Shown piece by piece: positions 18,795-58,000 of a DNA stretch of 64,000 nt. Origin of the DNA: Siphonodentalium dalli (taxonomy: Eukaryota > Mollusca > Scaphopoda > Gadilida > Siphonodentaliidae); the NCBI GenBank assembly GCA_032622095.1, contig CP136065.1:52139949-52203948 (forward strand). The letters are read 5' to 3'. A program made the position numbers and the translations under genes. Each line of letters starts with the position of its first letter. Position 1 is the stretch's first letter. Under the pieces are notes generated by a model. It worked only from the letters and a program-made list of their open reading frames with translations. It searched no databases and had not been told where the DNA came from.

Positions 18795-19041
18795 CTAAAC
18801 AAACTCTAAAAAGATTTGATTTTCAAACTTCCCCTGGTTGAAGAGAATTAAACCTTTATTAGCATCTGTATTCTTTTCTACAGTATACACCAGTGTGTCA
18901 TCATCCACGTCACTAGCTGCTACCTGTCCGATGAACGTCCCGGCTGCCATATTCTCCAACAGTGAGAATGTGTAGGATGCATTTGCAAATCGAGGGGAAT
19001 TGTCGTTCACATTCTCTACATCAATAACAAGTAACTCAGTG
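18795..19041 (-). CDS. Cadherin exon 21 (last visible; 3' end uncertain)
   Basis: Acceptor TACATTACAG; phase 2 in. It reads TELLVIDVENVNDNSPRF, then the start of another EC repeat with ASDVDDDTLVYTVE. The frame stays open to a TAG at 18795-18797, which would end the protein in mid-repeat with no membrane anchor. A weak donor (AAAG|GTTTAA) at 18853/18854 falls where sister repeats are spliced (after GNKG), so the exon may end there instead. The exon start is well supported, the end is not. Confidence 0.75.
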
Positions 19042-22000
19042 CTGTAATGTAAATGTATACTGAGGAAAATAATGTGATTACTAATGCTTAACCCTTTTAT
19101 GATGGGAACTGCGCTGGAGCAGCATTAAAGATCATGTACCAGTGCATTCTGTTATATATGCGAGTCTCCCATAGGGAGCCTCACATATATTGTAGAATAC
19201 ATTGGCACAGAGTTTTTCGCAAAACTACAGGAAGCTCCGGTCATGGACGGGTTAATTCAATTTTTTGTTCTTGGGCCACAATCCAACGAAGCCAATGTAT
19301 TCTCTTATATATATGAGGCTCCCTATAGGAGACTCGCATCTATAAGAGAATACATTGGCACAGAGTTTTTAGCAAAACTACAAGAACCTCCAGTCACGCA
19401 CAAGTTAATTAAAAACAAATTTCTTGGGCCACAATCCAACGAAGCCAATGTATTCTCTTATATATATGAGGCTCCCTATAGGAGACTCGCATCTATAAGA
19501 GAATACATTGGCACAGAGTTTTCGCAAAACTTCAGGAATCTCCAGTCATGGAAGGGTTAAGACCACATTCATACAGTAATGCCCTAAATAATCGACTCTA
19601 GGAATTTTGCCTGGGAATTTTTTGTCTTGCATATCGAGACAGAAAGCTATAATATGCCAAAAATTTAATACAAAAATGCTTATAGACTGCATTTATACAT
19701 TAGTTAACTACATGATAATTGAACACTCTGTAGTTCTACCTGTAACGATGCTGAAAATTGCCTGTAAATACCATTAAACTTTCTCGCAAGAATCAATTAT
19801 ACAGGTATCTGAACGCAAATGTCAGTAGCACTGTAACATGTGGAACTACAGAAATTTGACTTGTCATATCGTTAGTTTTGGTAAAGATTAATTTGACATG
19901 AATTTGTTCAATCATGTTGTTACAATGGATCCAAATATATTGCATCCTTATTTCAATATAATAGATAGATATATAGATAATTTAATAGTCAGCATTAGCA
20001 TATCATGCCGTGGGAAAACCAGAGTGCAGCTTAGAGCAAAATAGTTTGTTGGGTTTTTTAATAGTCATTCTAAGCTGGCCTTGTTCTAATGGCTTCTAAA
20101 TGTTTTAGATCGAAAACACATATCCGTTTACAAATTTTATATCAATTGTGGTGAATTATGGAAGATAAAAAAGTTCCAAAATCACAATGACGTCATTTAG
20201 GTGGGTTGACGTCCCTAGTTACCTGCGCAATTTGCATATACAATTACATCATGAAAGTAGTAATAACCTAATAAAGCTATGTTGACCTAATAAAGCTACA
20301 TTGACATAATAAACATAATTTTTATTAGGCAGGCTTTATGTAGGCAATAGAGGTCATGAACGGTGGATACAATGATATGTCTGCATCCTGCCGGGATTGA
20401 CAAGGCCTTGATTTATACCCATCTTCCTGTCAACCCCATGAATAATAGATACTAAGCATGCCACTAGCGTGAGCATGGTTTAATAGTTATTTCTGATGGT
20501 GGGCGAGAACTGATTTGTTTTGATTGTCCTGGAATATCATTTATCTTGTCTGTTGACTTATCATATTGATTGGTGCCTGTGGCATAATAAGACATCAAGA
20601 GATCAGTACTCAGGCAGTCTGCCCACCTGAAGACTTTTGTTTAATATTTAAATTTCTTATAGAATACCTGAATAATGAAGAATTGTGTACGTCGAATGCA
20701 TTAACCTTGAGGTTGTACACATTTTCTTTAGCTTCATAATCAAGAGGTTGTACAATAATGAGCGCTCCACTTGTAGAGTCAATTGAAAACTGAAATAAGG
20801 AGGAAAATTAAGGTACAAAAAATATAAACTAGATAAGTAATAAAAATGTATATAAATAGTGAACTCCTTTAGAGAAGGGTGACATTTCTATAAAGTTTGA
20901 ATATAATATGAAATTAAGACCCCAATGGTTGTGTGCCAAGAAAACTAATGCTTTCAACTTTTTTCTCATAATTTAAGCATGTCATCATGATACTATTTGC
21001 AACCAAGCCTGAGAATATGGTGCCGTATATTTGCAGAATGAGGTCCCCAGAGGATGAATTTAGTGATGCTACCCCACATAGTGGGCTAGCATCACTAAAT
21101 TAACCATCTAGGACCTCATTCGGCATGGTATGTGATATAGGTTCCAAGATGGTGAAGATGGTGATGTGCATCCATTGGATACCTCAATTATGCAGTGTGT
21201 CGTCTGCCAATTTGGGGATATAAAGAAACTAAACTTAAAAAGAAATTCTAAAATAAAACCTGTTAATTTGATAATAAAGACACTTTCCAGAGAAGATGAG
21301 GCCAAAGGAGAATGAGATCCACATATGGTGAATTTAGTTATGCTAGCCCGCTATGTGGGATAGAGTCGCTAAATTCACCCTCTGGGGACCTCATTCTGCA
21401 AATGTCCAACACCATATTCTTAGGCCTGTTTGCAACCATATCACTGGTAATAACTACAGTAATGCCCTAAATAATCGACTCCTTAACTACAGCAGAATTA
21501 TGGTAACTTTTCAGGATTTAGTTGGAAATATGGCTTGTTGCCATTCATCGGAAAGCTCTCAATGAGAGCTTTCCGATGAATGTCAACAAGCCATATTTCC
21601 GACTAAATCCTGAAAAGTTACCCATAATTCTGCTGTGGTTAAGGCATCGATTATTTAGGGCATTACTGTATATGGATGTTCTACTCTTAAAACATACTTT
21701 CCATAAAAATAACCATGTGGTTTCTTAAAATATATTACAACTAGCCGATGAGCCCGACGTTGTCCGGGCTATTCAAAAACCAAATTTCAAGTCGATAGCT
21801 CCACCCGTTTCCGAGATCTGGTCTGCGCATGCGCAAACTTTCAAGTCGATAGCTCTACCCGTTTCCGAGATCTGGTCTGCGCATGCGCGAAGCTGGCGTC
21901 GCACGGGCTCGGCGACCCGATAAAATTCGTATCCGGGGCAAGATACATTCACATACCAAATTTCAAGTCGATAGCTCCACCCGTTTCCGAGATCTCGTCT

Positions 22001-25000
22001 GCGCATGCGCGAAGCGGGCGCCGCACGGGCTCGCCAATACGACAACGTCGACCGTCTGGTCAAACTACACACACGTACCAAGTTTCATCCCGATCGGTCG
22101 AGAATCGTAGATTTGTATAAATGACAAACAAACATACAAACAAACATACAGACAGAGGTCTTCAAAATATATATGAGATAATTGAAAGAAAAACCCCAGA
22201 CACATATATTACAAATGATATTTCTGTGAATCTTCAGATGAGAAAATATGAATACACACAAAGCATGATGGTTGATATTATTATGAACACCATTATAAAT
22301 CCTTCCTGTCATCTGCTTATGGTATCTGAACATAGCTACAAATAAACATTGGCGTCCAGATACCGGTAGCCTGTGTATTTTACACTTGGTTTATATGCAA
22401 GACATACACAAGCAAACATGCTTGTATCGACAAGCCATGCACTGTGTATTCTGATATCGTGTTTATGGACGATCGGTCACCCGTATCAGTCCGACAACAT
22501 ACTTACTGCCTAAATAGAGCTGCATGACATTACTGTGTGATCAGCACCGAAGCTTTTTATTTAATGACAGGTCCAGATAACTGCCGGTGAAGTGAACAGT
22601 TTATTATCAGATTAAAAATTCTACTATGAAAAGTGCATTTATTTCAGACATAGTTCAAACATAAAATCTCACCCAAACAGCAACATCGACCCGACAAGAC
22701 ATAATACCAATGCAAATCTAACAGAACCAGTAGAACATGATAACTCTTCAAACTATAATGCCGTGCAGCATGTTACAGCCAACTACAGTAATGCCCTAAA
22801 TAATTGTCTCCTTAACCACAGCAGAATTATGGGTAATTTTTCAGGATTTAGTCAGAAATGTGGCTTGTTGCCATTCATGGGAACGCTCTCATTGAGAGCT
22901 TTCCGATGAATGGCAACAAGCCATATTTCCGACTAAATCCTGAAAAGTTACCCATAATTCTGCTCTGGTTAAGGAGTCGATTATTTAGGGAATTACTGTA
23001 TAGGCACACACAATATAGCTAAATACACAGACAAAAGAATGCCTGTTTTTGTACAGTAAAGTACCCGCATGTATAGTATAAACGGGTTACCAGCATCTAG
23101 CCGCTGACCATTTACAAACTTCTGTAAATAATGAAAGTGTCAATGACACTGTAGCTCAACTTGGGAAGGAATTAATTGTTTGCTGAGCAATGAATAGAAT
23201 GATAAAGAAGAAGGAAAGTAAACTAATGGTCAACCGATGATCCATATGAAGCTTGGCGATGATCAGATGAGGTATGTGGTCTGTAGGGTGTGCCAAAGGA
23301 TTTTGTCACACAAAGAGTAAATTCCAAGATGGCCACTGGGGGCCACGTTTTTCAAAGTATTTCGGTCAAAATAAGAGGCTCCCATCTAGAGGTCACCCCG
23401 AAGATCCATATGAAGTTTGGATGAGGGAGGTGGTCTGTTAGGTGCGCCAAAGGATTTAGTCATACAAAGAGTAAATTCCAAGATGGCCACTGGCGGCCAT
23501 GTTTTTCATCAATCTCAGTCAAAATATATATGAGGCTCCCATCACAAGTCACCCCGAAGATCCATATGAAGGTTGGTGATCATCAGATGAGGGGTGTGGT
23601 CTGTAGAGTGTGCCAAAGGATTTAGTCATGCAAAGAGTAAAATCCAAGATGGCTGTCAGCAGCCATGTTTTTCATCGAAAATTTTCAAATTTGATAGCTC
23701 CCATCTAAAGGTGATTCTAAACATCCCTGTAAATTTTCAAATCAATTCTCCAATAAATGTGGGCTGTGCCAATGGATTGAAACTTGAAATCCAAAATGGC
23801 AGCTGGCGGCCATGTTTTTTTTTTTTTTGGTCAAAATAGGAGGCTCCCCCATCTAGAGGTTACCCCGATGATCCATATGAAGTTTGGTGACAACTGGATG
23901 AGAGATGTGGCCTGTAGGGTGTGCCGAAGGATTTAGTCATGCAAAGAATAAATTCCAAGATGGTTGCTGGCAGCCATGTTTTTTCAACAAATTTATCTAG
24001 AGGTCACCCTGAAGATCCATATGAAGTTTGGTGATGATCAGATGAGGGATGTGGTATGTAGGGTGTGCCAAACGATTTAGTCATGCAAAGAGTAAAATCT
24101 AAGATGGCAGCCGGTGGCCATGTTTTTCATCGAAAATTGTTCAAATTTGATAGCTCCCATCTACAGGTGATCAAAATTGTGGCTGTAGGGGGTGCCGATG
24201 GATTCAAATTTGCAAAGTTGAGCTAAAAAGGTTGAAAATAACAACTCACATGTCCTTTATTGCCATCAGTCAAGTCATATCTAACATTGTTGAATGGTGA
24301 ACTGTCAATATCAGATGCCGATACACTGCAGTTAGTAACTCCTGTTATATTTTCTAGAATTTTGCATTGATACAGCACTTTATCGAATCGCGGAGGATTG
24401 TCATTTGAGTCTGTTATTGACACTGTAAGAGTGGTATTCACAACATGTCCTGATGACTGAACATGTCCAATTGGAAAATCTTGAGCGAAAACAGTCACTG
24501 AGAAGTTCCTGTCTGACTGTGGCGGATCAAAATCAACAGATTTGGATAGCACCAGCGCACCAGTTAGTTGATCCACAACTAGTATAGATGATTTCTCTGC
24601 TTCGTAATATACTGTGTTGTGTGCAATGCTTGTGTCCGCATCGGTAGCTTCCACTCTGAAGACGGAAGGAAGTAAATATGTAAACAAGACAGTCAATGAC
24701 TGTGGGGTCGCTCACCTGACTGTAAACACTGAGAAGACTGGGACTCTGAAGACTACAATAGTCAGTAATTGTCAAAATCACTTAAGATAACTAATTCTAA
24801 ACAGGAACATAGCTGGAGGTTCTCTGATGAGCAAGGCTCTTCACCTTGAAATGTTTAATTGCACACCACTGAAAAATCTCCAACCCTTACCCTTTTTAAA
24901 CAAGACATCCAGACCACAGTCCTAAGTTCACAAAATTCCTTTTGCACATCCCTCTTAGAATTAAATTTTACAACTGGTACCACTACTTCTAACAGTTTAA

Positions 25001-28000
25001 CCCGAAGTAGGAAAATATGGACTGTTACTGGTTGAAAAATCAAATCTACAACTAATGTTGTATCAGGCCTGAAATTTCCAACTGTTTAAAATTTTGATCA
25101 TAGTAGGGGATCAAAACCCACCCCTCTACACTTCCACCTCATTGCCCCCCACCCAGGCAGCTTAGAAATCAATAGGAATATATATATTATTATACCAGTA
25201 TCAAACAGCATAGATACAGGTAGGGTGGGTGGTTGAGAGTTTAATCTCTGATCTCTGCCCCTATTTGAACAAACGTGAATCCCCATCTATGAGATCCATT
25301 CATTTAGAAATTTCAGAGTTGAAGAGAACTGATTTAGTCATGCCGCGGTTTTATTTTTAATACCGTGTAGTCGGTATTAGATTACTTGAATAGTCGGTAT
25401 ATCGCCGCAAACTATATTTTCTTCTTTTAGTCGGTTTTACGACAGCAAACGATATAATCCGAGGAAATAACGTGTGCTTGTAAGTAATGAACGAGAACGA
25501 GAACCAGCGTCACTCAGACTGAACGAGAACCAGCGAGACGAGACGATAACCAGCCAGACTGAAGCAAAGTTGGAAAAGCAATTTTAACAAAGGCAGTGCC
25601 AACACGTTGTACACTGAAGGATGTGTGTTTATGGTCGTCTCATAATTAGACCATGATCGCCATCCATACAATTACAAAATTTATCGAGACATCATCGAGA
25701 CACCACAGATATATAGATATTGGTTGGAGACGACCTAACCTTTTTAGTATAATCTGGACTTAAATCCCCTCATGGTATAACTTCTTTAGAAAACGAACCA
25801 AGAGCCATATCAATTTGATTCTCGATAACAATCTTTGTTGTGAATTAAAAAATGTGAATTAAGTACCTGTTATTTTTGCATAAGCGACGTCATTAGAGGA
25901 CATTGTTACGATCACAAGTGACATGCATTGCGTTGTCCTATTTTCGTGTGTCCGCGTGACACTGCATTCACACGCAAATATTGAATTGCGTACTGCATGT
26001 TCCATAGGATCTTGACTAGTAATATGTTTTAAAATAATTCTTGACGGCATTTAGTCATACCGCGGTATTTCTTTTGATACCGTAGTCGGTATTGTGAAGG
26101 TGGATACCGTGAAGCCCTAATGGATGGACGGACGAGGAGTGATGACTATAGCTTAGACCCCGAAGCCACGACAAATAGTTTTCGCGGCTGGCTCAACCGA
26201 TTTCGTGGCAGGTTAGCTTGCTTAGCCAGCTCAGTCGACAAAATATGGTGGCTCAGCCGGTTGAGACATTATCATTCAGCGTAATTTAGTTTCCGAAATG
26301 TTCCTAATCCCCGGTTATAGACCCCGTTAGTTTTAGTGCTTGTGGTGAACCCTTAGATTTCCAGACTACGCATAATCTTTTGATGTTGGGTTTTCCCATT
26401 ATGGCGAAAATACACGAAGGACTGGCATGGACATACTATGTAGTTTCCCATCTAATCGTTATAAGTTACATTGGGACTTCTGTCGACTTCAGACTGCTAT
26501 CATCACTGGCATCTTGCGATATATGCATGCATCATTGAATAATGAATCCGATAGTAATGTTATATAATATTTCAAACTATTTTCTATTCTCTTATACAGG
26601 CTATGTGCATATATTGATAAATACCAGCGATGTCTGAGACTGGATCGTGTCGATATAAACAATTTATACTTTAACCCTTTCAATACCGATTGGATGCGCC
26701 CATTTAGTTATATGAAAGCATGCATTGGGATAGTCTATTCCACATTAAGGGGCCCGGTATTCTGATAATATAACAACCATGACGTGTCCATGTGAGTATG
26801 CCAATATTAGTCAATGCGGTTTAGTTCTTTGCGATTCACAGTACAGTTGTGCTTGACATGCACGCGGCTCAGCCATTTTACAATTCCGGCGGCAGATATT
26901 TTTTCATGTGGCTGGCGTTAAGAGATAATATGGCTGGCGGCGGCTTGTGGCCAATATGGCTGGCGGCGGCTTGTGGCCAATATGGCTGGCGGCGGCGAGG
27001 TGCGATGGCGGCTTCGAGCTCTACTATAGCTCCACCGGAGACTTCGTCTCAGGTAAGCTAAAAAGACCTAAGTAAAATTAAGGCTAGTAATTAATAAGTC
27101 TGTGTTCGTTTGGGGTGTAAAACATCAAATATCCAAATCCCCCCCCCCCCGCATTAAATGTACCAGAACAATAAAATAAATACCCTCAAATGGTGTAAAT
27201 GTTCCAACTAAGGCCACGCAAAGTCAATTTCCAGTTTCTCAGGTCTGTATGCATGGTCCTGAACCCAGCGCCTGCAACCTTATTATTCTCGTTTGATATG
27301 TCGAAAAATATAATAGGTACAAAATAATAATGGTGCAGAATTGAGACCTGTTTCCTGATTCAAATTTTCAATTCGATACTCATTGGTAACCATGTGCTCA
27401 ATATTTGATGTATTGCGTATGCAAACTCAATCAAAAATGTGTCAGTGATACTTTATTGGGTGAATTGTGATGAAATAAATTACATGGAATCTATCAAGTA
27501 ACTTTGTATGGACATATAATAAATAATGGCCACGGGCAACTGAAATTAAACCTAGAACTAGCCAATGCAGAGGTAGCATGCTTCATTAACTTGTTCTCCA
27601 AAAATAAAAACTAAAAATAAATTGTGCAGTTTTCAATTTTTTTTGGCCTGAGAAATGGGAGATTGTCTTTGCGTGGCCTAATGGCCATTTAAGTATAAAA
27701 TTTGACTGAAAGTAGGAAAATATACGACTCTTGGTCTGAAAGCAAAATATTTTACACACAAAATTCAAAATAAAAAAAGTAAAAAGAAAACATCATCTGA
27801 AACTGGCTCAATGTCTCCAGTTCATTCAATTACCTTCCTATGGACGCTCCAACCTGAGTGTTTTCTGGAACCATAATATGTAGATGCTGATCCAGGAAGA
27901 CAGGAGCATTGTTGTTGGTGTCCTGTAAAAACATTTATTTGTGTCAATGCAGTGAGCATATGGGTTTATTTTCTTTTTCACACTATAGACTATTAAAAAT

Positions 28001-31000
28001 GGCATATCTCTACCCAAAACTATCTGTATAGATTAAGTGCTATGAAATAATAATTTGGAGTCCGAGAAAGAATTAAGTCAAACAGGAGCTTATGTCACCA
28101 GCAAATAATTTTTTCCATAAACGCCACAGAACGTTATGCTATTTAAAAACAAATGTGTAACATCAGTATTTTTGTATTTTTTTGGAAGAATGCAACTGAG
28201 ATTCTACAAAACTTTTTAGTCATATTTGTATTTTGTTGAAAGTGCAGACAGGAAAGGATTGAGCGTCTTGAAAAGAAATCAGTGTTCTCAGGTTGCACTC
28301 AAAGTAGCCTTAAAAATTGGCTGCAAGAGAAGATAGAAAAATGAACTTGATCTGTACTTTGTTTGTAAAACGGAAAAGGAAGTTGAGCCCAAATACCAGC
28401 AAAGGGCCAACACTGTTACATATTGACTGCTGCAACCAAAAATCAAACTTGATTCCGATTTTGTAGCAGTATACACACACACACCAAATTTCATTCTGTT
28501 AAGTTCAATAGATGGCTAGATGAACAGACAGACCAAAAACATAATACCTGGTATATAATCGGTATATAAAATGAATAAAGCACAAAGTGTCAAAACCACC
28601 GCCAGTCAGTAGCAATTAATGACTCCAGATTTACAATATCTCTTGAGCATAACATAGATAAAAGATAGTCATGAGGTTTAAATTTAAAAACTTCTAAATT
28701 CACCCATCAAGCATCCACAGACTATAACACTATGCCTATGGGGCGGAAAATATTATCCAGCCATGCGGCAGCTATGGTTAATTTCCAAACAAAGTTTGTG
28801 CAACATTCCACAGTTATAACATTAGTTTAAGAGAGCCATACTATAGTCAATTTTAAGTGAAGCTACTACTTATGCATGAGTTATGCAGAGTTTATCAACG
28901 AATTATTGCCCACCTACAATTCGACGTAAGCAACAGGGGTGAAGTAAAAATTCTCTGTTAAAGTTTATTTCTCTATGGATTGTGATTCTGGGTGGTGTGT
29001 ATATCAATTTCTAGGTGGGTGTGGAGTTCTCACCCTTGAGCATTTCCGATAACCCAAGATGGCGTCCAACATGGCTGCCGTAGTATAGAATATGAACTAA
29101 GTCAGTTTAATCTGTTTTGTTGGAAACTATATCTCATGAAATGTACTCAAATTTAGAAATTATTTGGATGGTATTACATTATACTACTGTTTGTAGGAAA
29201 AGTTGGCACTCCATTAGAAAGATGGCTGCCAAAATGGCGACCGGAATGTGAAAAACATGATTGTTTTCACTCATATCTCCTATATCAGTTCCTAGTGTTT
29301 TGGACTGGCAGAAAATTGTGCCTTGTTTTCTTGTTATTCATATCGTATGATAATTTGCTCAGTACTACATGTTCTCCCTTTCATCTTAGCCACTTCCAAC
29401 CCCTGATAAAACTGATCTTACAGAACGTTGTATGAAATTTTCCCGAAAACTCAATATTGGTTCCTGGTCATATTTTAATGTGAAATGAACACATTTGAAG
29501 GAATTAATAACCGAGTGTGAGTCTTGTCTATAAAATTCAATCTTTGTAGGGCCTGAAACTGTTACTATTGTTTATGACGGCAGTCAAAATGGCAGAAAAT
29601 GTATATATTTTGTCCTTATGCGCTTGCTTGTTGTGACTGATAGATGCGTGGAGTTGGCTAATCTACATTAGATACATTAAAAAGAAACACTTTAAATAGG
29701 AAACAATATCATTCAATATGAACATGGGAAATTACACGCACATACGGTGTGAGATATATATTTTAGAAGCCCAGAGACTCCCGCGCTATATTTCATTTAT
29801 TCAAGATACAGCCTTGTATAATTTAGTGCCGTGACATCAACTATGTGGAGAATGCACACTCAGTGTATGACGATGTGATTGATGCATACTGATGTAGTTA
29901 AGATTAATCGTATGTACATGTCAATGTTGTCATACTGCTCTTGTGGGCAATGAGTTCCAAAAGCTGTACAACATAAAATGTTGTCATACTCTAGTACATC
30001 AGGGATATAATTTGATCACAGCATCATCAAATGAAGATACATTGGTCCGCTGGTACAATGTAACGGTGTTATCATCACATTCAATTACAACTTAGAAACC
30101 TTCAGATACAGTATCGAACATTGCATGAGTTTAGATATCAGCGTATACCGGGTATCGTTGATCATATGACCCTGAACTAACATTTATTCAACAGCCTCTT
30201 CATACACAAAGAACAGAATAATTTCCGTGTGCAATACGATTAGAGGGGAAGTCACGAATCCTAGTTTCACGTGTATCAATCTATATGCCTTGTGAACATA
30301 GAACAAGCGCCTGAATACAATGGGACAATTGGAAGACGAAAACTTATAACACATACATGTTCCTGATTGATTGATGGTATTTAATTGTATTGCATATTCG
30401 GTTATCAGAGTTCGCGGTAGATAAAACAGACAAATTTTCCAGGAGCAAGCTGGCAACTTTGAAGATTCAACATGGATACACATGTACAGGATTTTGAGGG
30501 CCATTGTACATAACGGTATATAGCCTGTCGAAACAAGCATCACAAAAGTTGGACCAAGTCTCCACTCTATAGATACCATGGTTTTACTAAATTATATTTT
30601 CCGACCCAGCACTCCACACTTGGTGTAGACGCATTCGTACTGAGTAGATATGCAAATAGCTCTCCCAGAGCTCAACAAATTTATGTATTTGGTGGGGCGT
30701 AATACACCCAAGAAGACACGAGCGAAAAATTCAAGACAAAAACTCAAACAGTACGTTCTTCAAGTGAAGCATGAGTTCGGTCGGTTCTACTTCGAGGGTT
30801 GGTGATAGTTACTTATGATGGGGTGATGATGTTTGGTGCTATCTCAATGTTCTGAAAACGCTCAAATGTGAGCAACAATCAGTCACAACAATCAGCCACC
30901 AAGCATTATTCGGCAGTATGTACAGCTTTATATGAACTACTTAGCATAATCAAGAATGTTACCAGCACAAGTTAATTGACTGTTTATTATTTGTTTTGTT

Positions 31001-43000: not shown

Positions 43001-46000
43001 TCCTTAACCACAGCAGAATTATGGGTAATTTTTTAGGATTTAATCGAAATATGGCTTGTTGCCATTCATTGGAAAGCTCTCAGTGAGAAAATTACCCATA
43101 ATTCTGCTGTGGTTAAGGAGTCGATTATTTAGGGCATTACTGTATCTCAAGCTTTTCAGTACAAACAATTGACAGAATATTGGAATATATTCAACTAGGT
43201 AAAAAAAAAAAAAAACTTCACTAAAGTGCTGGTTGGAAAACTAAAAACTACTAGATAATTGTCGACCTACAATTGATCATTTCCTGTTGTGTCAGGCAAG
43301 AATGTTCTAACTACTGAAATATTTGGCTGAAGTTATGGGTGAGACACCACCTCCAACTGCAAGCCACCACCACCCATCAAGATGCCCACCCTCCCCCTTT
43401 GCTATGTCTAAGTGAACATTCAGACGACCACGGTTCAATTGTAAGTGGAGGAATCGGGCCAGATATAACCATGGCTTTTTGTTCACACAATTGCGATGTT
43501 GTTTGTTTGTAAGCCATGGTTAACCACGTGATTGACTACCCTACGATCTTTCCATCTACAATTTCCATTGTACACACCACTGTGATTCAGTCGCAAGTAG
43601 AGGTAACCATTGCAAGGATACGCCATGATTTCCCATCTAAAATCAAACAGTGCTTGATATTTTTTTTTAACTCGCGATCTTACCGTGAGCACGCACAGTC
43701 CATATACCGGTTACTACCCATGACGAATAACTTTCCACTTATGATTGAATCGGGATCGTCTGAACGTTCACTAAGACAATTAAATTAGAGGACCACCAAT
43801 ATATATTATTTTTTTAACGTTTGCTCAGATGTGACGAATATGAAAACTGAGTTTGCCAGAAACGACCATATGTGCGAGCTGAGATTTTGAAGGAAAGCCA
43901 CTTTTTTCATAAATAAAATCTTTAAAAACTACAATCAAGCTCTCTAAATCACACAATTTGTGAATGGGGACTCGCCTAAAAACAGATGTTGACCATTTTC
44001 ACATATTGTACGTGTTCTGTGCAGCAATTTAATGTTCCATGGTTTATTTTGGGGGAAAAATCACCTTACTTTGTGAAAAAAGTGACAATTCTGGAACACA
44101 TCAGAACTTGATATACACCATTAATTAAAGTCATTTTATAGCAATACTTGACTTACTTTTGTTAAACACCAAAGGATTATCATCTATATTCTCGACATGT
44201 ATGGAGATATTTACTTTTTGGTAGATGGAATAGTCTATGTTGCCTGGAGGTATATCAGTAGCTGTAATCTGTAAAGAGTAAAACAAAGCCTGTTTGAGGT
44301 TACGACATTGTCTAAATTACATACAGCTAACTATGATATCTTAAGGTTACCATGGTACCATCAAAAATAATTATGAAGTTTATAGGAAATTATAACTATG
44401 AAGTTTGAAGAGAGATTTACTATAACATTTATGAAGTTACTAGCTGGGGTACCCGGGATTGCTCGGGTAAAGAAGATTAGAAACAACTTCAAGTGTTTTA
44501 CATTTACTCAATTTTAAAGAACATTTTTGTACACCATATTGGTGAGCATGGGTGAGGAGGTTTTGCAATAATCTAACCCTTGAGCATCTGTTGATCCATT
44601 CCTGATATGGTATGGATAAAGAGCATTCTGCTCGCTAATGCTAATCAAGGCGCTGTGTGACGTTGAGTGTGGTCTCTTTCAATGCTAACAATAAAGAGCG
44701 ATCATTGTTGATCTATTCCTGATATGGTATGGATAAAGAGCGTTCTGCTAGCTTATGTGCAGCAACTTGTTAACAGCATTCCACGCGGAGTCTCAACTGC
44801 TATTGTTAAGACATCTGAGGTCTTCAGGACCTATCTAATAAGATTCCCAGGGTCAAATTACCCCTATGTACAAATTTTCAGCTCCGAGGCTCCAGTCGTT
44901 TGGTCGCCTATAGCCCAGACAAATAAAGAAATTGAGTTTTATCAGTATAGATAACTGCTATGTTAGTTCTATAATGTGTCTTCCAACTCTGCAGTTATAC
45001 CATCATAACCTGAATTGATTATTTCTTAAATAGTACTTAAGATACACTGTACTTGCAAGTTGTTCACTTGTCAAGATATAACCAAGATTGTTTCATGATT
45101 TGAATTTATCATTTAAAATATCAGTGTTTGAACTATTTATCCATTTTTCACATGTATATGACCTTAATTGGTTTCACTGCATGGAGCATTTTATTACCCC
45201 AGAACTGACATGCACCCAGGTAAAGCAGTGCAAACTGAGTTTTTCTGCCACAAGCCAGGTAATCAGTTTACAGGTGAATCTCCCGGCCGCCATGACAATC
45301 ACAGTACGAAATCACCAGTCAAAGACAACCAACATAGTTCGATGATCAAACAGGAGCAAGTGAGATTTCAATGTATGAAATCGTGACTGTATAATTTGAG
45401 CACGCTAGCCACTGGATCAACATCTGCCTATGCCTACAACTCACAGTGAGAGTAAATTCTCTGTCGTTAGTTGGAGGATCATAGTCCAGTGGTTTGGCTA
45501 ATGTTAACGCGCCTGTCTGTGGTCCAATGTGGAACTTCTGTTTCTCGTTACCAGAAATAATTACGTAGTACACATTACTGAACTCCTTTGTTGTATCATT
45601 GTCACTCGCTGTTATCCTGAAATATATAGGAGGTTTATCACAAGTGTGATTTTCAAGTTGACAATGGTTGGATGTCAAGTGGATACTAAATAAAATATTT
45701 AACCCTTTCTGTACTTTCTGTTATTCATCTGGTGGGGTGTTCAGGAATAAGTAGATAACAGATAATAATACGCGTATGTGTGTATGTTATATTTTATTTT
45801 TTTATTTCTGTGTCACATGCCAACAAAGCATTCCATATTTGGCTAGCTCCGGGTCTAATTCCAAATGGGTAAGTCCATTATTTCCTGAACAGATGTCCGT
45901 AAAAATAATTAGTTGATAGATTGAACATGAATAAAGAGGTTACACACACAGGGTTTCAGGATCATGCACATAGGACTTAGAAACAGAAAATAGACATTGC

Positions 46001-49000
46001 ATGGTCTAATGTACAGTAATGCCCTAATTAATCGACTCCTTAACCACAGCAGAATTATGGGTAACTTTTCAGGATTTAGTCGGAAATATGGCTTGTTGAC
46101 ATTCATCGGAAAGCTCTCCCGAGAGCTTTCCGATGAATGGCAACAAGCCATATTTCCGACTAAATCCTGAAAAGTTACTCATAATTCTGATGTGGTTCCT
46201 AACCGAGAGCTTTCCGATGAATGGCAACAAGCCATATTTCCGACTAAATCCTGAAAAGTTACCCATAATTCTGATGTGGTTAAGGAGTCGATTATTTATG
46301 GCATTACTGTATGCGATATGTGGTTTTAAATATAATTCTGAATGAAATTTGATTTACTATTAACATTTACACATTAAGAGATGAAAGATAACAGTTATTA
46401 TCACTAATATAACATTTTCAGTGTCACCTTTTATAATTATATAAAGGATATTTACCACTGTAAAGGTTGTCCAACCGCCATGCTTTCAGGTACTGACATC
46501 AATTTTTTAAACTTATCGGTCTGGAATACAGGCTTGTTGTTGTTGATATCCTGGAAGAAAATGGTATCAAATACAAGCCTGGATATAGTGTGTCTGACAT
46601 TTGCAGAATGAGGTCCCCAGAGGGTGAATAAGTGATGCTATCCCACATAGCGGGGCTAGTGCCACCAAATTCACCATCTGGTGACCTCATTCTGCTTTGG
46701 CCTCAACTGCCATGGAAGACCTAGGATCGGATTGAAGTTCCCCAATTGAAGTTGGTGAATTTCACCCATTAGTCACCTTGATTATGAAATTTATCTGCTG
46801 CAAATTAGGGGGTATAGAGACTGAACAGAAGGGAAAAATTAACTAAAAACAATGTTAATTTGAGACTATAGGTACTACCCAGAAGATGAGGCCTAAGCAG
46901 AATGAGGTCCTCAGAGGGTGAATTTGGCCTCAATTCACCCTCCGACCTCATTCTGCAATGTCAGACACACTACATCCAGGCTTGATCAAATATCACAAGC
47001 TTGATTGTCTGTATATGTCTGATGAAACAGGGAGTGTTTATCATCAATGTAATGAAATCTGCAAAACAATTCATTATGTAACTACAGTAATGCCCTAAGT
47101 AATCGATTCCTGAACACAGCAGAATTATGGGTAACTTTTCAGGATTTAGTCGGAAATATGGCTTGTTGCCATTCATCGGAAAGCTCTCCCTGAGAGCTTT
47201 CCGATGAATGGCAACAAGCCATATTTCCGACTAAATCCTGAAAAGTTACCCATAATTCTGCTGTGTTTAAAGGCACGTGCGGCCTTAATTGTCGAAAATA
47301 TTCATATTTGTTCCAAACACCGTAAACAGAAAAACATTAAAACGCATACAGTTCCGTTCATATATACCATGACCATCGCGTAAACAGCATGTTATCATAA
47401 AGACCTACTATATTTTACCTAAGCAAGAGCCTGATTGTGTTACAGAAGATAGCACAATGCTACTGGATAATCACACACAAATGGCATAAACGCTCTTTAT
47501 TAGTTCCATATCAGGTATTCACCAACAAAGAACGCTCTTTATGTTTACCATCATAATATAAACAAACACCAGAAAAGTAACTTTTTATGCTTTTGTTTAC
47601 ATAACAATGGTCAAAGATATGACAATAACATACTGTTTATGCGATATTTCTTATTTGTATACGGACAAAGTCTATCTACATTTTGATGTTCTTTCTGTTT
47701 GATACGGTTTTTGACGGTGGAGATATTTTCTCAGGATACCCACCGCCAAGGCCAACCGTGTCTTTAAGGAGTCGATTACTTAGGGCATTACTGTAAGTGA
47801 AAAGCACTTTCATCTACCATTTCCTATGAAATTCCCTGATAAAATTGGCGATAACCAATTGGTGATAAAACATTGTTATGACATTGTTATGACATCATTG
47901 ACTGGTTCAAAACTATGAATGAACTGACATCACATCAATCACGTCAACAATCAAAACGACATTCCAACGTATATTCTTGTGTACTATAAACAAACAGTTC
48001 CTTGGATTTAACATTATTTGATTGTCAGCTACAATCATGGGTATTATGGTATAACATGTCACAAAGTAATTAATATGTATTTGCTGAGTATTTATACACA
48101 CAATGTGTTTGTAACGATTCATGTATCATGACGCAGCTAGTTTTCGTGGTTGTCTCATCGCAATATGGCCACAAACACTAGCCTCGTCGTGATACATGAA
48201 TCAATGCAAACACATTGTGTATATAACACGTATTTATCAGCATTTTATACTGAGTGAGTTTCTCTCCAAGATCTTTCAAATTCAATGGGTACGATCCATG
48301 GGGTTACTCAGGAACAGTTGTGGGAAACCTTCTTGTCAAAAGTGCTTATTTGATATGCATGCAGTCAAAAGCTATTCATGTTATTTCGTCACAATTTAGA
48401 GCAAACCACATTTGATGATGCTTAGAAGCATTGTGCCGGTTCATAACGTGATCATAATAACGACATGTATAGAAGCATTGTGCCAGTTCTTACCATGATC
48501 ATAATGACGACATGTATAGAAGAATTGTGACGGTTCTTACCGTGATCATAATAACAACATGCTTAGAAGCATTGTGCTTGTTCTTACCGTGATCATAATG
48601 ATGACATGTATAGAAGCATTGTTCATGGTTTTATCAGAATAAGGCTGCTGATTATAGGCTGATACAGTTAGTTCCTGCGGACTGCTCATTTTGTTAAGGT
48701 CCAATGTCCCAGTGACAACAAGGGTGCCATCTGTTCTGACAGAGAAAAGATTACCATCCCCACTGTGTAGAGAGTACAACATATCTGTGTTTATGGATGT
48801 AGCATCCCGATCACCAGCCTGTAACAGAAAGAAAGGATCTGAGTCTTAACCAGAGATCTGAGTCTGGGTGAGTTATAACTACAACATATGGATCAAAGGC
48901 TGATATGAAGCCATATTTAACCGAAAACTGATATTTTTACACGTAAGTATATCCATGGTGTCATAAAATAAAGTATACCCATGGTGTCGTATTTTTGCAT

Positions 49001-52000
49001 GTATTTGAACATTGTGTATCCAGGTGCAACAATTAATTTTTTACATTTTTCCAGTGGAAAAAAGTAATTAGTGATGATTAATATCATTCTGTATGTTGTT
49101 ATTGCAACTTGAAGTCTGAAACCCTGAATGCATCTTTAAGGCTAATATTCCCAATGAGTCAGTATTAAATACTCACAAGCAATTTAATTATATTTCCCAT
49201 ATAGCCTTCTGGATGGGAAAGAATTATCTCTTTTTCTGCAAAATAAGGTGGATTGTCGTTGACATCTGTCACACTAACAATGACTGTCGTAATGCTAGTT
49301 AGTTGTGGGATTCCATTGTCAACTGCTGCAACTATGACATTGACAGTCCCCTCCTTCTCTCTATCCAAACCATTTGACACTGCCAGTGTTCCGTCAGAAC
49401 TGATATTGAAGTGGTCACTCCTGGAAACATTAAATTGATATTAAGTAGCTAACTAGTATTTAGCAGCGTATTTAGCAGCTTATTCATTCAGCATAAAAAT
49501 ATTTAAATAAAAAAACTATAAATTTTAATTTAATTTCGGAAATCATTTTTAGTTTGAACTCTTTGCTCAATTTAACCCCCAAAAAAAAAACAATGTAATG
49601 AAATAAATATAAATTTTCATTTTTAATCAAAATTTTGAATAACTAACACCGTTATAACATCCGCTGGGGTACGCAGTCGCCAACAAGGTTTTGATTGAAA
49701 TCGGTCCATGGCTCTGGGAGAATAATCCCGAACAGGCAGACCTACTGAACAGAACCTACTGAACATCTATTATATACATAGATATGAAATTGCTATATCT
49801 AACTATTAACTCTTCCAGGACTGAAGATTTCTGACATTTTGTGTAAACCCTATGCCAATGCATTCTCTAATATATGTGAGTCTCCCATAAGGAGAATACA
49901 TATAAGAGAATGCATTGGCCTAACATTATTACGCTGACCTTGTAAGCCAGTGCATTCTGTTATATATATATATGGGAAACTTGTTTATATATGAAAGCAC
50001 TTGCAAAGGATCTTTAATGCTGCCCCAGTGTGGCTCCCGTCATGAAATTGTAAATATCTAGTGAATAATCACTTTAATACCAAATTAACCCTTTCATTAC
50101 TGAATAGATTCTGCCATTTAGTTATAAAAGTATGTGTTGGAATGGTCTACTATTAATTTGGAGGGACCTTTTGATAATACAAGAACAGAAGACATACAAT
50201 TCTTATTTAGTCAGACAATAAGATCAATGAAAGTGTCAATGAAACTGTAGCTCAACTTAGGTAGGGGAATAATTTAATGGTTGACAGTAAATGGAGGAAT
50301 AGGAAATGTGCTAATTGAAATGTCTAACATGTGCCAAAGGATTTAGTCATGCAAAGAGTCAATAAATCCAAGATGGTTGCTGGCGGCCATGTATTTTGGC
50401 CGAACGACCCCAAAATCACTCGTTCCCATCTAAATGTCAATACTAACATCTATGACATATTTCATGATGATCAGACGAACAGTACGACCTGTAGCCCGCG
50501 CCATTGGATTGAATTTTGAAATCCAAGATGGCCGCCAGCAGCCTTGTTTTTCGGCCAAATAACCCCAAAATGACTTGTTTCCCATCTGCATGTCATCATT
50601 AACATCCATGACTAATTTCATGAAGTTCCGACCAAAGCTACGACCTGTAGCCCGTGCCAAAGGATTTAGTCATGCAAAGAGTAAAATCCAGGATGGCTGC
50701 TGGCGGCCATGTTTTTTGGCCCAACGACCCCAAAATCACTCGTTCCCATCTACATGTCAATATCAACATCTATGACATATTTCATGATGATCAGACGAAA
50801 AGTACGACCTGTAGCCTGCGCCAATGGATTGAATTTTGAAATCCAAGATGGCTGCCAGCGGCCATGTTTTTTGGCCGAACGACCCCAAAATGACTCGTTC
50901 CCATCTACATGTCATTGTTAACATCCATGACAAATTTCATGAAGTTCCGACCAAAGCTACGACCTGTAGCCCACACCAAAGGATTTAGTCATGCAAAGAG
51001 TAAAATCCAAGATGGCTGTGGCGGCCATGTTTTTTGGCCGAACAACCCCAAAATTACTCGTTCCCATCTACATGTCAATACTAACATCCATGACAAATTT
51101 CATGATAATCAGACAAACAGTACGACCTGTAGCCCGCGCCAATGGATTGAATTTTGAAATCCAAGATGGCTGCCAGCAGCCATGTTTTTTTGCCATATAA
51201 AACCCAAAATGACTTGTTCCCATTTACATGTCAATGGCAACATTCATGACAAACTTCATAAACATCGGACCAAAGGTATGACCTGTAGCCCGCGCCAAAG
51301 GATTTAGTCATGCAAAGAGTAAAATCCAAGATGGCTGCTGACGGCCATGTTTTTCGGCCGAACGACACCAAAATGACTCGTTCCCATCTACATGTCATTG
51401 TTAACATCCATGACAAATTTCATGAAGTTCTGACCAAAGCTACGACCTGTAGCCCGCGCCAAAGGATTTAGTCATGCAAAGAGTAAAATCCAAGATGGCT
51501 GCTGGCGGCCATGTTTTTTGGCCGAACGACCCCAATATCACTCGTTCCCATCTACATGTCAATATCAACATCCATGACAAATTTCGTGATGATCAGACAA
51601 ATAGTACGACCTGTAGCCCGCGCCAATGGATTGAATTTTGAAATCCAAGATGGCTGCCAGCGGCCATGTTTTTTGTCCGAATGACACCAAAATGACTCGT
51701 TCCCATCTATATGTCAATGTCAACATTCACGACAAATCTCATAAAGATCAGATCAAAGGTATGACCTGTAGCCCGCGCCAAAGGAAATTGTTGACGGACA
51801 CACGCACACACACACACGGACGACGGACGCCAAACCATGGCAATAGCTCAAACTTACAAAGTAAGTTGACCTAACAAGAGGATGCACCTCGGATGCGGAC
51901 ATACCAACACAGTGCCAAATTAAAACACGGGCAGGATGGAACTCAAATTTAAAAGAAACAAAGAATAATAACTCTAGAACAGAAAACACAAACAATGTCA

Positions 52001-55000
52001 AAAAACAAACAAAATAGATTTCCAGATAAACAAAGAAGGATAGCTCTATATAAAGGAAAAAAAGAAGGCAATTTGCCCCTTTCTTTCAAATCATTCATGA
52101 TGACGAACATTCATGCCAAATTTCATTCAGATGCAGTAACCTATGGTTGAGGTATATGCCCGGATGGACCGACAGATGCAGTAACCTATGGTTGAGGTAT
52201 ATGCCCGGATGGACCGACAGATGCAGTAACCTATGGTTGAGGTATATGCCCGGATGGACCGACAGATGCAGTAACCTATGGTTGAGGTATATGCCCGGAT
52301 GAACCGACAGATGCAGTAACCTATGGTTGAGGTATATGCCCGGATGGACCGACAGATGCAGTAACCTATGGTTGAGGTATATGCCCGGATGGACCGACAG
52401 ATGCAGTAACCTATGGTTGAGATATATACCCGGATGGACCAACAGATGCAGTAACCTATGGTTGAGATATATACCCGGATGGACCAACAGATGCAGTAAC
52501 CTATGGTTGAGATATATACCCGGATGGACCGACAGATCAGTAACCTATGGTTGAGATATATACCCGGATGGACCGACAGATGCAGTAACCTATGGTTGAG
52601 ATATATACCCGGATGGACCAACAGATGCAGTAACCTATGGTTGAGATATATACCCGGATGGACCGACAGATCAGTAACCTATGGTTGAGATATATACCCG
52701 GATGGACCGACAGATGCAGTAACCTATGGTTGAGATATATACCCGGATGGACCGACAGATGCAGTAACCTATGGTTGAGATATATACCCGGATGGACCGA
52801 CAGATGCAGTAACCTATGGTTGAGGTATATACCCGGATGGACCGACAGATCAGTAACCTATGGTTGAGGTATATGCCCGATGGAGCAACAGATCCAGTAA
52901 CCTATGGTTGAGGTATATGCCCGGATGAACCGACAGATGCAGTAACCTATGGTTGAGGTATATGCCCGGATGGACCAACAGATGCAGTAACCTATGGTTG
53001 AGGTATATGCCCGGATGGACCGACAGATGCAGTAACCTATGGTTGAGATATATACCCGGATGGACCAACAGATGCAGTAACCTATGGTTGAGATATATAC
53101 CCGGATGGACCAACAGATGCAGTAACCTATGGTTGAGATATATACCCGGATGGACCGACAGATCAGTAACCTATGGTTGAGATATATACCCGGATGGACC
53201 GACAGATGCAGTAACCTATGGTTGAGATATATACCCGGATGGACCGACAGATGCAGTAACCTATGGTTGAGATATATACCCGGATGGACCGACAGATGCA
53301 GTAACCTATGGTTGAGATATATACCCGGATGGACCGACAGATGCAGTAACCTATGGTTGAGATATATACCCGGATGGACCAACAGATGCAGTAACCTATG
53401 GTTGAGATATATACCCGGATGGACCGACAGATCAGTAACCTATGGTTGAGATATATACCCGGATGGACCGACAGATGCAGTAACCTATGGTTGAGATATA
53501 TACCCGGATGGACCGACAGATGCAGTAACCTATGGTTGAGGTATATGCCCGGATGGACCGACAGATGGAAAAAGTCAATCCAGTATACCATCCATTATTC
53601 TTTGAAGAGTTGGGGTATAATAAATGGCGGCCTTGGGCTGTTCGCTGAACATGTTATCTGAATAATCTGCAAGTGAACTACTTGTCATCATGTATTTTAA
53701 GTCATTAACCCTTTCAGTGCCAGGTCCGATTTTTGTATCAACTCATATACCCTGTGCCAATGCATTCTCTTATATAGGTCGCCTCGCATATATAAGAGAA
53801 TGCATTGGCCTAACAATTTTTCATCATTTGTTATTATTTTTTACAATTTTTTACAATTTTAATAATTTTTTCTTATTTTCTTTAACATACTTATTTTGTA
53901 GGGGTAGTACCAGGGAATCTTACGTTTTTCATGGGCATCAAAATTATAGTTTTGAGTTATAACATGCCCCTAAGGTTTTATCCAGTTTATTTTTAAATTT
54001 GCTATAGCATGCTTAAGCATACCCAAAAAAAATTCAACCAAAACAAAAATAAACAAAATTTAAAACATTTTAGGGCCGATTTTACAGACCGTAAATTAGG
54101 GCCGATGAGATCGGCCCCTGGCACTGAAAGGGTTAAAGGGTAAAAACTTTATATGGGTGTCGTGTGTCCCGAATTATATAGAAGTAATTCATTTCTAAGC
54201 CGTTCTATTTTTATAAACTGATCTGAAAACAGAAATGTGCAGTTGTCTCTGCAAATTGTTCCATAGGCTCACAGCAGAAATTAGGAAATCAAAGAAACAA
54301 CTAGTAGCCATATGACTATAATAATTATTCAACTACATACATTATAACGTAGTTACATACCAATCTGCTGCAAGTATTTTGTACGATATCTTTCCGTTTC
54401 TCCCCTCATCCCTGTCTGTTGCCTGAAATTGTTGTAAACTAAATCAATGAGATGTATAATACTTGTGTTTTTAACTATTTTATGTATATCCATGGAATAT
54501 AATGCATATGACAAACAGCTAGGAGTCACATTTATAAGTGTATTTGAACATTGTTTACCCGGGTGCAACATGATACACTGGGTTCAGATTGTTTCAAATT
54601 ATCATACACTGTAGTTTTTAGATTGGAGATTGGGAATAGTAGGTTTTCTTGTTGGGTTGATGTTGAAAATTGATGGTCATGACTGTCAATATTTAAACAA
54701 TCACACTGTCAATACATGTTATCCTATTTTCAAAGATGATAATTATAAGCTGAAAGATACAGAAGATCATGAACAAAAGCCTGCAACATGAGAATACACA
54801 ACACATGGCTTGTGATACAAAGAAAAAGACATGTTTTGCCAGGAAATATTCTCCCAGATAACCAATATGTTAAATACATGGCTTTATGCATCTCAGTAGA
54901 TATATGATAAATGGGAGTATTCTCGCTGCTGTTGTTGAGAATTGGACTCCAAATTTATTTTTGAAAAGTAAACCCATTCCAGGATAGGATCCAACTTTAA

Positions 55001-58000
55001 CAACTGAAGCCACCAGCGTATCTGGGGAATTAGCCCTTTCTATACTAAATGGATTTTCCCTATCAGTTATAAAAGTATACATTGGAATTTGGAATGGTCT
55101 ATTATACATCAAGAAATTTAAGCAGGTGGGATACAAAAAAACAGATAACAAATGCAGAATGATTCCTATTTTGATTGGTGGGAAATGTTCAGATAATAAG
55201 TTCAACAAATGGCCATTTGTTGCACTTATAATCTGAACATTTCTTATTGTAACTACTTTTTATATGGCATTTTTAACCCATTGACAATGGGACGGCTTCT
55301 CCCATACATTCTAAATGTTTACATTTGACAATATATTGTCCCACAAGTTGTTCTCAAATTCTTGAAGTGCTACATGCACGTTTTCCAATCTAAACTGCAC
55401 CAATGGCAGAAACTTGAGGCAATGCTATCCTTTCACAATTGCACCATCTGTGTCTCAGAAGGTGCTCATAGAGTAATAGAAAAAATAGGTGAAATCATAA
55501 ACATTTCCACTGTTTTGCTCCCAGAATGCAACAGAATTCAAACTAAGATATAGTTATTCCCCTTCCATTGAAAATAATAGACTATGCAGAACAGTCCAGA
55601 TGAAACTTAAGCACAGAACACATGTCAGTACCTCAACATAAACAATATGTTCACAGTTTATTACACCGAATAAGTTGATAAAACAATATTTTGGAGCTTC
55701 CTCTTTCAAATGGTATATACTATGGAATATATTTTATATAATGTGATCTGGGGCTTCGAAAATTAAGTAGGCCTATAAAATCACATGCATGTTATTCTGT
55801 GTTTATTAAACACACAAAGCAATTAACGGTAATCAGTACTCACAGCGACTCTTCCCAGACTCCTCTTCTCATTCTCGCCAATAGAGAATTTGTAGGTTGC
55901 TTGTGAGAAGACAGGAGGATTATCATTGATGTCCATTATGGTTACACTGACTGATGCTGGGGCTATCTGCAAGAAGATATACCAGATGAAATAAAAAGGC
56001 CTCAATGAGGCATGAAAATTATCCCATAATAGAAGAAATAACAAGAGGTTGCAACATGGGTGCTGGCATACAGTAATGCCCTAAATAATCGACTCCTTAA
56101 CCACAGCATAATTATGGGTAATTTTTCAGGATTTAGTCGGAAATATGATTTGTTGCCATTCATCGGAAAGCTCTCACAACAAGCCATATTTCCGAATAAA
56201 TCCTAAAAAATTACCCATAATTCTGCTGTGGTTAAGGAGTCGATTATTTAGATCATTACTGTACACCCATAGTGCCAAATTGAAACATGGTCAGAACAGA
56301 ACCCAAATTTTAAAAGTAAATAAAAGGAAACATGTGAACATTACTATTTCATTGAAAGCCCTTGTGACGATTAACATCATTACAAAATACCATGGCTGAG
56401 TTATCTGTGCAGACAGACAAACCGTATTTTCCAGAAAAATGAAGAAAGATAACACTAGAAAGAAATCAGGAATGTCATTCAGATTCAATAAGCCATGATA
56501 TAAGATGAGATATCTGCGCAGATGGAGGGAAACAGATTAGTGGAAATTGGTTACTCTCGGCTATTCTGGGTGTATTGTATTTATACCTGTTTATACCATA
56601 ATTATTTTTAATTTGTTGCATGAATTTATCTATTCTTTAGTAATGCTACTCAGTTACTTACCTTTAATATGTATCCCTAACAAGTGCATGACTCCACTAT
56701 TTAAAGCTATGACAAATTTGGGTCACTTGTAGCAATACATAATTTAGGTCATTCAGTGATCTGTCTATTTATAAGACACAAGTCAGTTGATATTTCAAGT
56801 CTAATTTTCCCCAGTAGTTCAAACAACAATAAAGCAAGTTAGCTATGCTTGATTAAAAAACAGGTAAAAATTAACTCTCATAAGCCTAAAAATTAAAACG
56901 GGCAAAATGAGGACCTGACATTTTTGTCTATACATACTACTTACATGACGGCCATCTGACACACGAATTGTTAGAACATAATGTGGATTCACTTCTCTGT
57001 CTAAAACTGCAGCAGTGTAGATGTTGCCACTGAAAAAAATAGCTAGGATGCAAATTTACAGTAATGCCCTAAATAATTGACTCCTTAACCACAGCAGATT
57101 TATGGTGAATTTTTCAGAATTTAGTCTAGTATTGGCAATCTCCAGTTCTAATTTTAGGTGCTGTGGCCATTTTATTTTCCAACCAGATGTCCGCAAAAAA
57201 GTTAGTTGATAAGATTCTAGATGATTTAAATCATCAAGAATCGCCCAATGAAGTATGACCTAATCCGTATACAGTGGGATATAATATACATGTTCTTTCG
57301 CAATCCATCAAGCATTTAACAAATGTTTGAACATATAGTTACCAATTACAGTAAGAAATTTAAAATTTTAAGTGGTAAACAGGTCTGTTCGATCTTGACA
57401 CGCATCTATAAGAGAATACATTGGCAAAGGGTTTTCACAACATTTCAGGAAGCTCTAGTCATTGAAAGGTTAATAATTACTAACCTATTTTTGTCAATTC
57501 GGAATGTTCCTCCGGAATTTCCTGCATAGACTGAGTATGTGAGAACATCGTCTTGATCCTTGTCAGTTGCCTGCAAAACAAGGATGCAAACTTGTCACAA
57601 AGTGTACCAATATAAAAGGCCAGCGGCAAGATGCATGAAGCTTATGTATCATACATCGGCTTGTATCCATGACATATACTCATGCAATAAACAAAGTATT
57701 GCTTGTGCATAATTCAATTGTACATGTACCTCAGTTGACCATGGTCTGCTGCATGGGGCGCGAAGTTTGATAGGATCATCATTTACTAACCTTGGCTATT
57801 ATGATGGCAATGAGATTAACGGTTTTTATTGCTGTTGGACCACATTTCACGAAGGCTGAAATAGCTAGATGCTCTTTTCATGTTGGATTTTGCTGTGGTA
57901 CCAGGTAGCTCAGCCTCAGATCCAACCGCAGTTGTACATGTACTTGTAGTTCATGTCTTATATTTCGCTTTGGTGGCATTTCAACCTCTTTTAACTATAT

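Follow-up and report, generated by a model that had tools for sequence, protein, structure and literature searches.

Cadherin repeats EC8-EC16 of a long gene read as a three-repeat block, b-c-a, probably duplicated in tandem

The window, a stretch of 64,000 nucleotides (GenBank CP136065.1, positions 52,139,949 to 52,203,948) on contig C5 of a 2.2 Gb assembly in nine contigs, belongs to a host whose gene content suggests an animal, and it carries on its minus strand part of a long cadherin gene. Nine successive extracellular cadherin (EC) repeats of this gene, EC8-EC16, are read here as the product of tandem duplication of a block of three different repeats, b, c and a, in which type-specific changes have been kept and which would form a compliant spacer; we give this explanation as a whole a probability of roughly 0.7. 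Its parts are graded separately. From sequence comparison, duplication of a three-EC block is very probable, and the frame b-c-a, with three copies filling EC8-EC16, is likely. The role proposed for soft joints is tentative, and we would sooner bet against it than on it.

Results

A period of three in the ectodomain

The 1114 amino acid (aa) translation of the gene model described below was cut at 11 linker motifs into ten ECs, a1 to a4 with the b and c repeats between them. When these are scored against one another with BLOSUM62 the mean at lag 3 is 142 (7 pairs) and that at lag 6 is 117 (4 pairs), the remaining means being 51 (lag 1), 50 (lag 2), 57 (lag 4), 61 (lag 5), 72 (lag 7) and 71 (lag 8), with 90 for the single pair at lag 9, a1-a4; the permutation p, from shuffled orders of the ten ECs, is 0.0017. 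Partitioning the nine ECs b1-a4 into trios in all 280 ways places b/c/a at the top, with a score of 1352.5 (runner-up 1124.5), and if three trios are placed at random a perfectly periodic order arises, by arithmetic, in 6 cases of 1680. All three b repeats carry the motifs AYNxxPY[SN][DN], NxS[IV]xV and DxNNNxPxF, and all three c repeats carry TGxLxL and [LV]D[YF]DxPxxDR. In a held-out ranking of 31 ECs, which excludes this gene's seven other ECs, profiles made from two copies rank the third copy first for eight of the nine module ECs, the margins being slim for a3 (54.6 vs 52.8) and a4 (37.9 vs 31.4).

An earlier note on this DNA, written by a model from the letters, had described cadherin repeats in a block ordered a-b-c, with three copies and part of a fourth. 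The dot-plot diagonals that it expected near 315 residues are there, since the eight best offsets of an ungapped self dot plot are 329, 644, 328, 316, 320, 649, 647 and 319 residues, falling at 316-329 and 644-649; a self-BLASTP of the 1114 aa gave no off-diagonal match. The motifs that it listed for type c, TGxLxL and one resembling LDYDPPTxDR, are present in every c repeat, and those for type b are sound apart from the last D of AYNxxPYxD, which is N in b2. Its count of 13 linkers across which the order holds is not confirmed, the 1114 aa having been cut at 11 linker motifs.

Could such a pattern be a by-product of general cadherin similarity, with no block behind it? All ECs are homologous, and pairwise identities between those studied here are low (21-45%). 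This account is scarcely credible given the permutation p and the first place among 280 partitions, and it is further opposed by three other long cadherin open reading frames (ORFs) of this genome, L018, L019 and L020, in which no comparable lag-3 peak is found: in L018 (13 segments) lag 3 scores 93 and the other lags 78-117, and in L020 (8 segments, one without usable length) lag 3 scores 53 and the other lags 71-139.

Three clades of repeats and the frame of the block

A first tree was made of 40 ECs, namely the ten considered here, seven others of this gene and 23 of other genes, the last taken by a linker-pattern cut at 88-130 aa from 8 ORFs longer than 250 aa at 7 loci; it was built without EC1-3, 18, 19 and every EC past 22 of this gene, whose exons are unchained. 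In it b1-b3 (99/98), c1-c3 (91/51) and a2-a4 (87/78) form clades, b is sister to c (91/87), no neighbouring block repeats are paired and a1 lies elsewhere, which is the three-clade outcome that the earlier note had named as its check. A tree under LG+G4 with 22 rows recovers b in 989, b2+b3 in 913 and a2+a3 in 934 of 1000 bootstrap trees, together with c1+c2 in 498 and b+c alone in 154. Clade b is firm, whereas the standing of c, and even more that of a4, changes with the tree model; a4 is the least certain member. An exon-level alignment was left unused, its short rows having landed on c2.

The frame of the unit hinges on a1. Its five nearest rows by path in the 40-EC tree are ECs of other genes, it joins a2-a4 in 0 of 1000 LG+G4 trees, and it keeps all eight canonical calcium ligands and lacks the cysteine pair described below. 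Its BLOSUM62 scores against a2, a3 and a4 (37, 71 and 90) are no better than those against b1 (83) and c2 (94). Because a1 is a canonical EC that groups elsewhere, we read the unit as b-c-a, three times over, and have rejected as best reading the a-b-c frame with a partial fourth copy, so that neither the assignment of the first 'a' to type a nor the extra part-copy claimed in the note is retained. One could still hold that the block is a-b-c, repeated three times with a partial fourth copy, a1 being a diverged type a; the a clade is the loosest of the three, and an approximately unbiased (AU) test of a1 joining a2-a4 does not reject the grouping (p 0.256). Set against the ligands, scores and tree neighbours of a1, this is improbable.

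Calcium ligands

Eight acidic residues, under residue numbers such as E69, were counted as calcium ligands in each EC. The nine module ECs retain 2 to 7 of the 8 (mean 5.1) vs 4 to 8 (mean 7.6) in the 23 other-gene ECs (Mann-Whitney p 4.5e-5), in a comparison where the linker-pattern cut of those 23 favours canonical D100 and D103 and not the other sites. E69 is present in 1 of 9 module ECs vs 21 of 23 other-gene ECs (Fisher p 3.6e-5). Three ligands are lost without exception in the b repeat of every copy: E69, D103 and D195 are missing from 3 of 3 b repeats, corresponding to the E of DYE, the second D of DXNDN and the D of XDX-top, where the motif names XEX, DYE, DXNDN, DXD and XDX follow PMC5120219. 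Each joint retains between 3 and 7 of its 8 ligands. Given the three losses in b, both joints that flank each b should bind less calcium, to judge from the letters, and would be more flexible than canonical joints.

A cysteine pair in five of the nine repeats

Two cysteines lie upstream of the DXD motif in a2, a3, a4, b2 and b3, at a place where none of the 23 other-gene ECs and none of 8 further ECs of this gene, a1 included, has any cysteine. A structure model of b2, for which nine further EC pieces from the window supplied the alignment, folds as an EC with a mean predicted local distance difference test (pLDDT) score of 80.5 and is the sole usable model; the single-sequence model of the a2-b2-c2 exon was discarded at a mean pLDDT of 34. 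In the b2 model Cys7 is in the first strand (4-10) and Cys18 in the second (15-19), and a Foldseek search gave 1122 PDB matches, of which the 50 listed are cadherin-superfamily by title (best E 1.2e-5). Judged from this model, the cysteine pair would form a disulfide bond, and in a2-a4, b2 and b3 it may staple strand A to strand B.

Gene model

Splice sites were scored and exons chained by hand on the minus strand (55966-18924), giving 15 exons and 14 introns, all GT-AG, in a single stop-free frame of 1114 aa. Both end coordinates of the earlier note, 55966 and 19041, are acceptors in this chain. The final donor at 18924 is uncertain; the alternative at 18854 is weak (score -4.6) and is in phase with a continuation at -14986. 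Features are as follows, each exon resting on the splice chain and each module copy on the chain, lag scores and tree, with further evidence in brackets.

55844-55966, minus strand, exon: end of EC6 and start of a1 (EC7) (splice scores, open chain)
54361-54422, minus strand, exon: a1 (EC7), a canonical EC outside the module (a1 lies outside the a2-a4 clade)
49177-49420, minus strand, exon: remainder of a1, with b1 beginning at 49239
41666-49239, minus strand, probable module copy 1, genomic extent: b1-c1-a2 (EC8-EC10)
48588-48818, minus strand, exon: b1; mapped to exon 10 of the earlier note
46456-46550, minus strand, exon: end of b1 and start of c1, phase 2 out; mapped to exon 11 (intron table)
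45445-45616, minus strand, exon: c1
44157-44268, minus strand, exon: end of c1 and start of a2
41105-41976, minus strand, fused exon: a2, b2 and most of c2, without the introns of the sister copies (intron table)
35921-41665, minus strand, probable module copy 2, genomic extent: b2-c2-a3 (EC11-EC13)
38880-39104, minus strand, exon: end of c2 and start of a3
35858-36091, minus strand, exon: remainder of a3 and start of b3
18987-35920, minus strand, probable module copy 3, genomic extent: b3-c3-a4 (EC14-EC16), a4 least certain
32220-32456, minus strand, exon: b3; mapped to exon 17
27834-27922, minus strand, exon: end of b3 and start of c3, phase 2 out; mapped to exon 18 (intron table)
24250-24655, minus strand, exon: c3 and start of a4
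20668-20789, minus strand, exon: a4, phase 2 out
18924-19041, minus strand, exon: end of a4 and start of EC17; donor possibly 18854

The b1 exon is also the site of a 47-bp tandem repeat (4.3 copies, 48423-48622) that lies over its 3' end and donor; donor-like repeat copies score well at 48588, 48541 and 48494, and alternative b1 exon ends that shift the frame are possible. The intron inside a1 holds a 45-bp minisatellite of 32 copies with 97% matches (52128-53567).

The cadherin gene seems to extend in both directions: EC-like ORFs, weak matches among them, reach about 82 kb on the upstream side and about -87 kb on the downstream side. About 36 EC linkers were counted by eye over the extended, incompletely chained gene. 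A transmembrane-like ORF at -91974..-92183 (L009), downstream of the window, is a candidate membrane anchor of this cadherin gene.

Introns and the order of duplication

In the intron table, which covers the a1-a4 ECs, b1 and b3 have common introns at alignment columns 34 and 145, both phase 0, c1 and c3 have one at column 31, phase 2, and c1 and c2 one at column 116, phase 0; a3 and a4 have phase-0 introns that lie close together in different columns. The matching of exon 10 with 17 and of 11 with 18, put forward in the earlier note, is upheld by columns 34 and 145 in b1/b3 and column 31 in c1/c3, with the qualification that column 34 at phase 0 is not specific because a1 uses it too. The note's central proposal, duplication of a three-EC module, likewise survives in part: three clades and some matching introns speak for it, the frame is changed to b-c-a, and the LG+G4 support for c and a2-a4 (given in the Discussion) is low.

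The fused exon at 41105-41976 perhaps reflects a run of adjacent intron losses, and recombination with complementary DNA (cDNA) would be one way to lose introns. It has a bearing on another explanation, in which ECs were duplicated singly or reshuffled, gene conversion or convergence on a recurring function having produced the period. An intronless exon 41976-41105 is what conversion by cDNA could cause, and b and c are sisters in the 40-EC tree, though joined alone in only 154 of 1000 trees under LG+G4, and one of the steps may thus have copied a single EC. Against it stand the perfect b-c-a order over nine ECs, with its chance of 6 in 1680, the agreement of introns with phase at several places and the low lag-1 scores, and we regard it as a long shot beside duplication of the whole b-c-a block.

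As to the order of events, log likelihoods with forced duplication orders are -5029.0 for the c-a-b frame, -5029.9 for the a-b-c frame, about -5033.2 for both unshifted orders and -5038.0 for a scrambled order. Of the five forced orders the c-a-b frame does best, with a lead of 0.9 to 9 log units, followed by the other shifted frame; AU p values for forced orders run from 0.10 to 0.40, none being excluded. Because the trees pair b2 with b3 yet a2 with a3 and, weakly, c1 with c2, two rounds with the second in a shifted frame suggest themselves, and a second duplication of c1-a2-b2 would account for all three pairings. Two rounds of duplication, the second perhaps frame-shifted (c-a-b or a-b-c), are the history we prefer on these sequence likelihoods, without regarding it as proven.

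Family membership and the rest of the genome

Pfam PF00028 is above cut-off in 4 of the 6 EC exons given (41998, 24711, 45720 and 49440); the b1 exon falls under it (23.0 vs 28.8) and the b3 exon has no cadherin match. As in block-grown cadherins such as CDH17, several ECs are repeated in order, with some introns matching and with a4 uncertain. Beyond its own gene a genome query with a2-b2-c2 finds matches at the usual EC-EC level, the best-scoring being the L019 ORF (32% identity, E 3.7e-19). Among the best 11 candidates scored in each case, b2 finds itself, b1 and b3 only, and for b3 the hits are its own pieces, b1 and b2, plus a single EC of a different gene (E 0.47). Laminin G has 38 matches listed genome-wide, none of them near C5:52.0-52.2 Mb among the matches listed, where weak matches can escape; EGF was not searched.

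Elsewhere in the window three MAM-domain ORFs (836-3997, minus strand; Pfam E 3e-22, 1.8e-16 and 4.9e-17) lie on the cadherin gene's strand, in what is perhaps a large intron of that gene, and may be a nested gene or a remnant. ORFs resembling reverse transcriptase by eye occupy 6191-9767, their starts at 6191, 7457 and 8716 being nearly identical and spaced by about 1.26 kb, and tandem arrays at 14495-14946 and 21781-22087 have a similar 122-bp unit in both.

Discussion

Several results weigh against the reading of EC8-EC16 as three b-c-a copies with compliant joints, in addition to the AU test of a1 and the bias of the linker-pattern cut noted above. Bootstrap support in the 40-EC tree is unsettled, 22 of 37 inner branches being weak, and under LG+G4 the c clade is found in 435 and a2-a4 in 63 of 1000 trees, with a4 joining b+c in 733. 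The free tree (log likelihood -5023.0) lies 6 log units above the c-a-b frame and places a4 beside the c clade, apart from a2-a3, and all four duplication orders are in the AU 95% set, with c-a-b ahead of the rest by 0.9 to 4.2 log units. In the held-out ranking a2 fails, at rank 5 of 31, and in the control L019 (7 segments) lag 3, at 135 vs 91-128, is nominally the highest lag of a flat profile. As for the joints, a-to-b and c-to-a are about as degraded as b-to-c, and a strict hinge at every third joint was rejected because those joints are degraded too. Finally, b1 has no cysteine pair.

With these points taken into account we still favour a three-EC block, b-c-a, that would have been duplicated in tandem to three copies, the stretch EC8-EC16 then being a compliant, repeated three-EC spacer of a long adhesion filament. 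A period of three is common to the domain-type order, to several intron positions and to the ligand losses of b, so that the steps by which this ectodomain grew can be read, among them perhaps a second copy in a shifted frame. Should the joints prove soft, the gene would offer a natural repeated series for asking how an adhesion filament gets its elasticity from calcium-poor joints, a question currently studied on single joints, of PCDH15 and LI-cadherin (PMC5120219 and PMC8427231). A fuller picture, in which a three-EC cassette was duplicated with a register shift (b-c-a, then c-a-b) into a spring-like filament, with calcium-poor joints flanking every b and with five of nine ECs holding a disulfide between strands A and B, is rather unlikely to hold in all its parts.

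Giant ectodomains of tandem ECs are shared with Fat, Dachsous and CELSR, names that we take to apply to the ORFs in L018-L020. Dachsous and CDH23 have 27 ECs and a family-specific tail. The Fat/Dachsous/CELSR-type ORFs, as we presume them to be, differ from the present gene in having no comparable lag-3 peak, and here no laminin G match is listed nearby.

In the portions of the open-access literature available to us we found no description of a three-EC block present three times with recurring ligand losses, nor, for cadherins, of a spring-like filament of this kind, and the accessible part of PMC3478510 does not mention duplication. Individual features do have counterparts. At the PCDH15 EC9-EC10 linker, as here, calcium motifs are lost at a joint: according to PMC5120219 that linker is calcium-free, lacks XEX, DYE, DXNDN, DXD and XDX and is bent by about 90 degrees. 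There a single joint is without the motifs, whereas here many joints have lost them in part. Drosophila N-cadherin also has a long ectodomain, in which there are linkers free of calcium, completely or in part, and which can bend at several sites; unlike here, no repeated block is described in the available text of PMC8325961. The extra EC disulfides of CDHR5 EC1, PCDH15 EC1 and PCDH24 EC2 join strands A-F or F-G (PMC8691648), whereas here the two cysteines sit in strands one and two as modelled for b2.

A further likeness is to CDH17 (LI-cadherin, 7D-cadherins), in which a run of ECs has also been duplicated. CDH17 is said to derive from a five-EC ancestor through partial gene duplication (PMC13169878), and its calcium-free linker bends (PMC8427231); there, as we read it, two ECs were copied once to give a seven-EC protein, whereas here a three-EC block is present three times in a much longer one. 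More generally, according to PMC1553488 the growth of domain repeats mostly involves several domains at once, and the autocorrelation of cadherin domains peaks at distance five, which contradicts the earlier note's view that cadherins for the most part grow repeat by repeat. Copying of blocks is nothing unusual in the growth of such proteins; here each copy repeats the same calcium-ligand losses.

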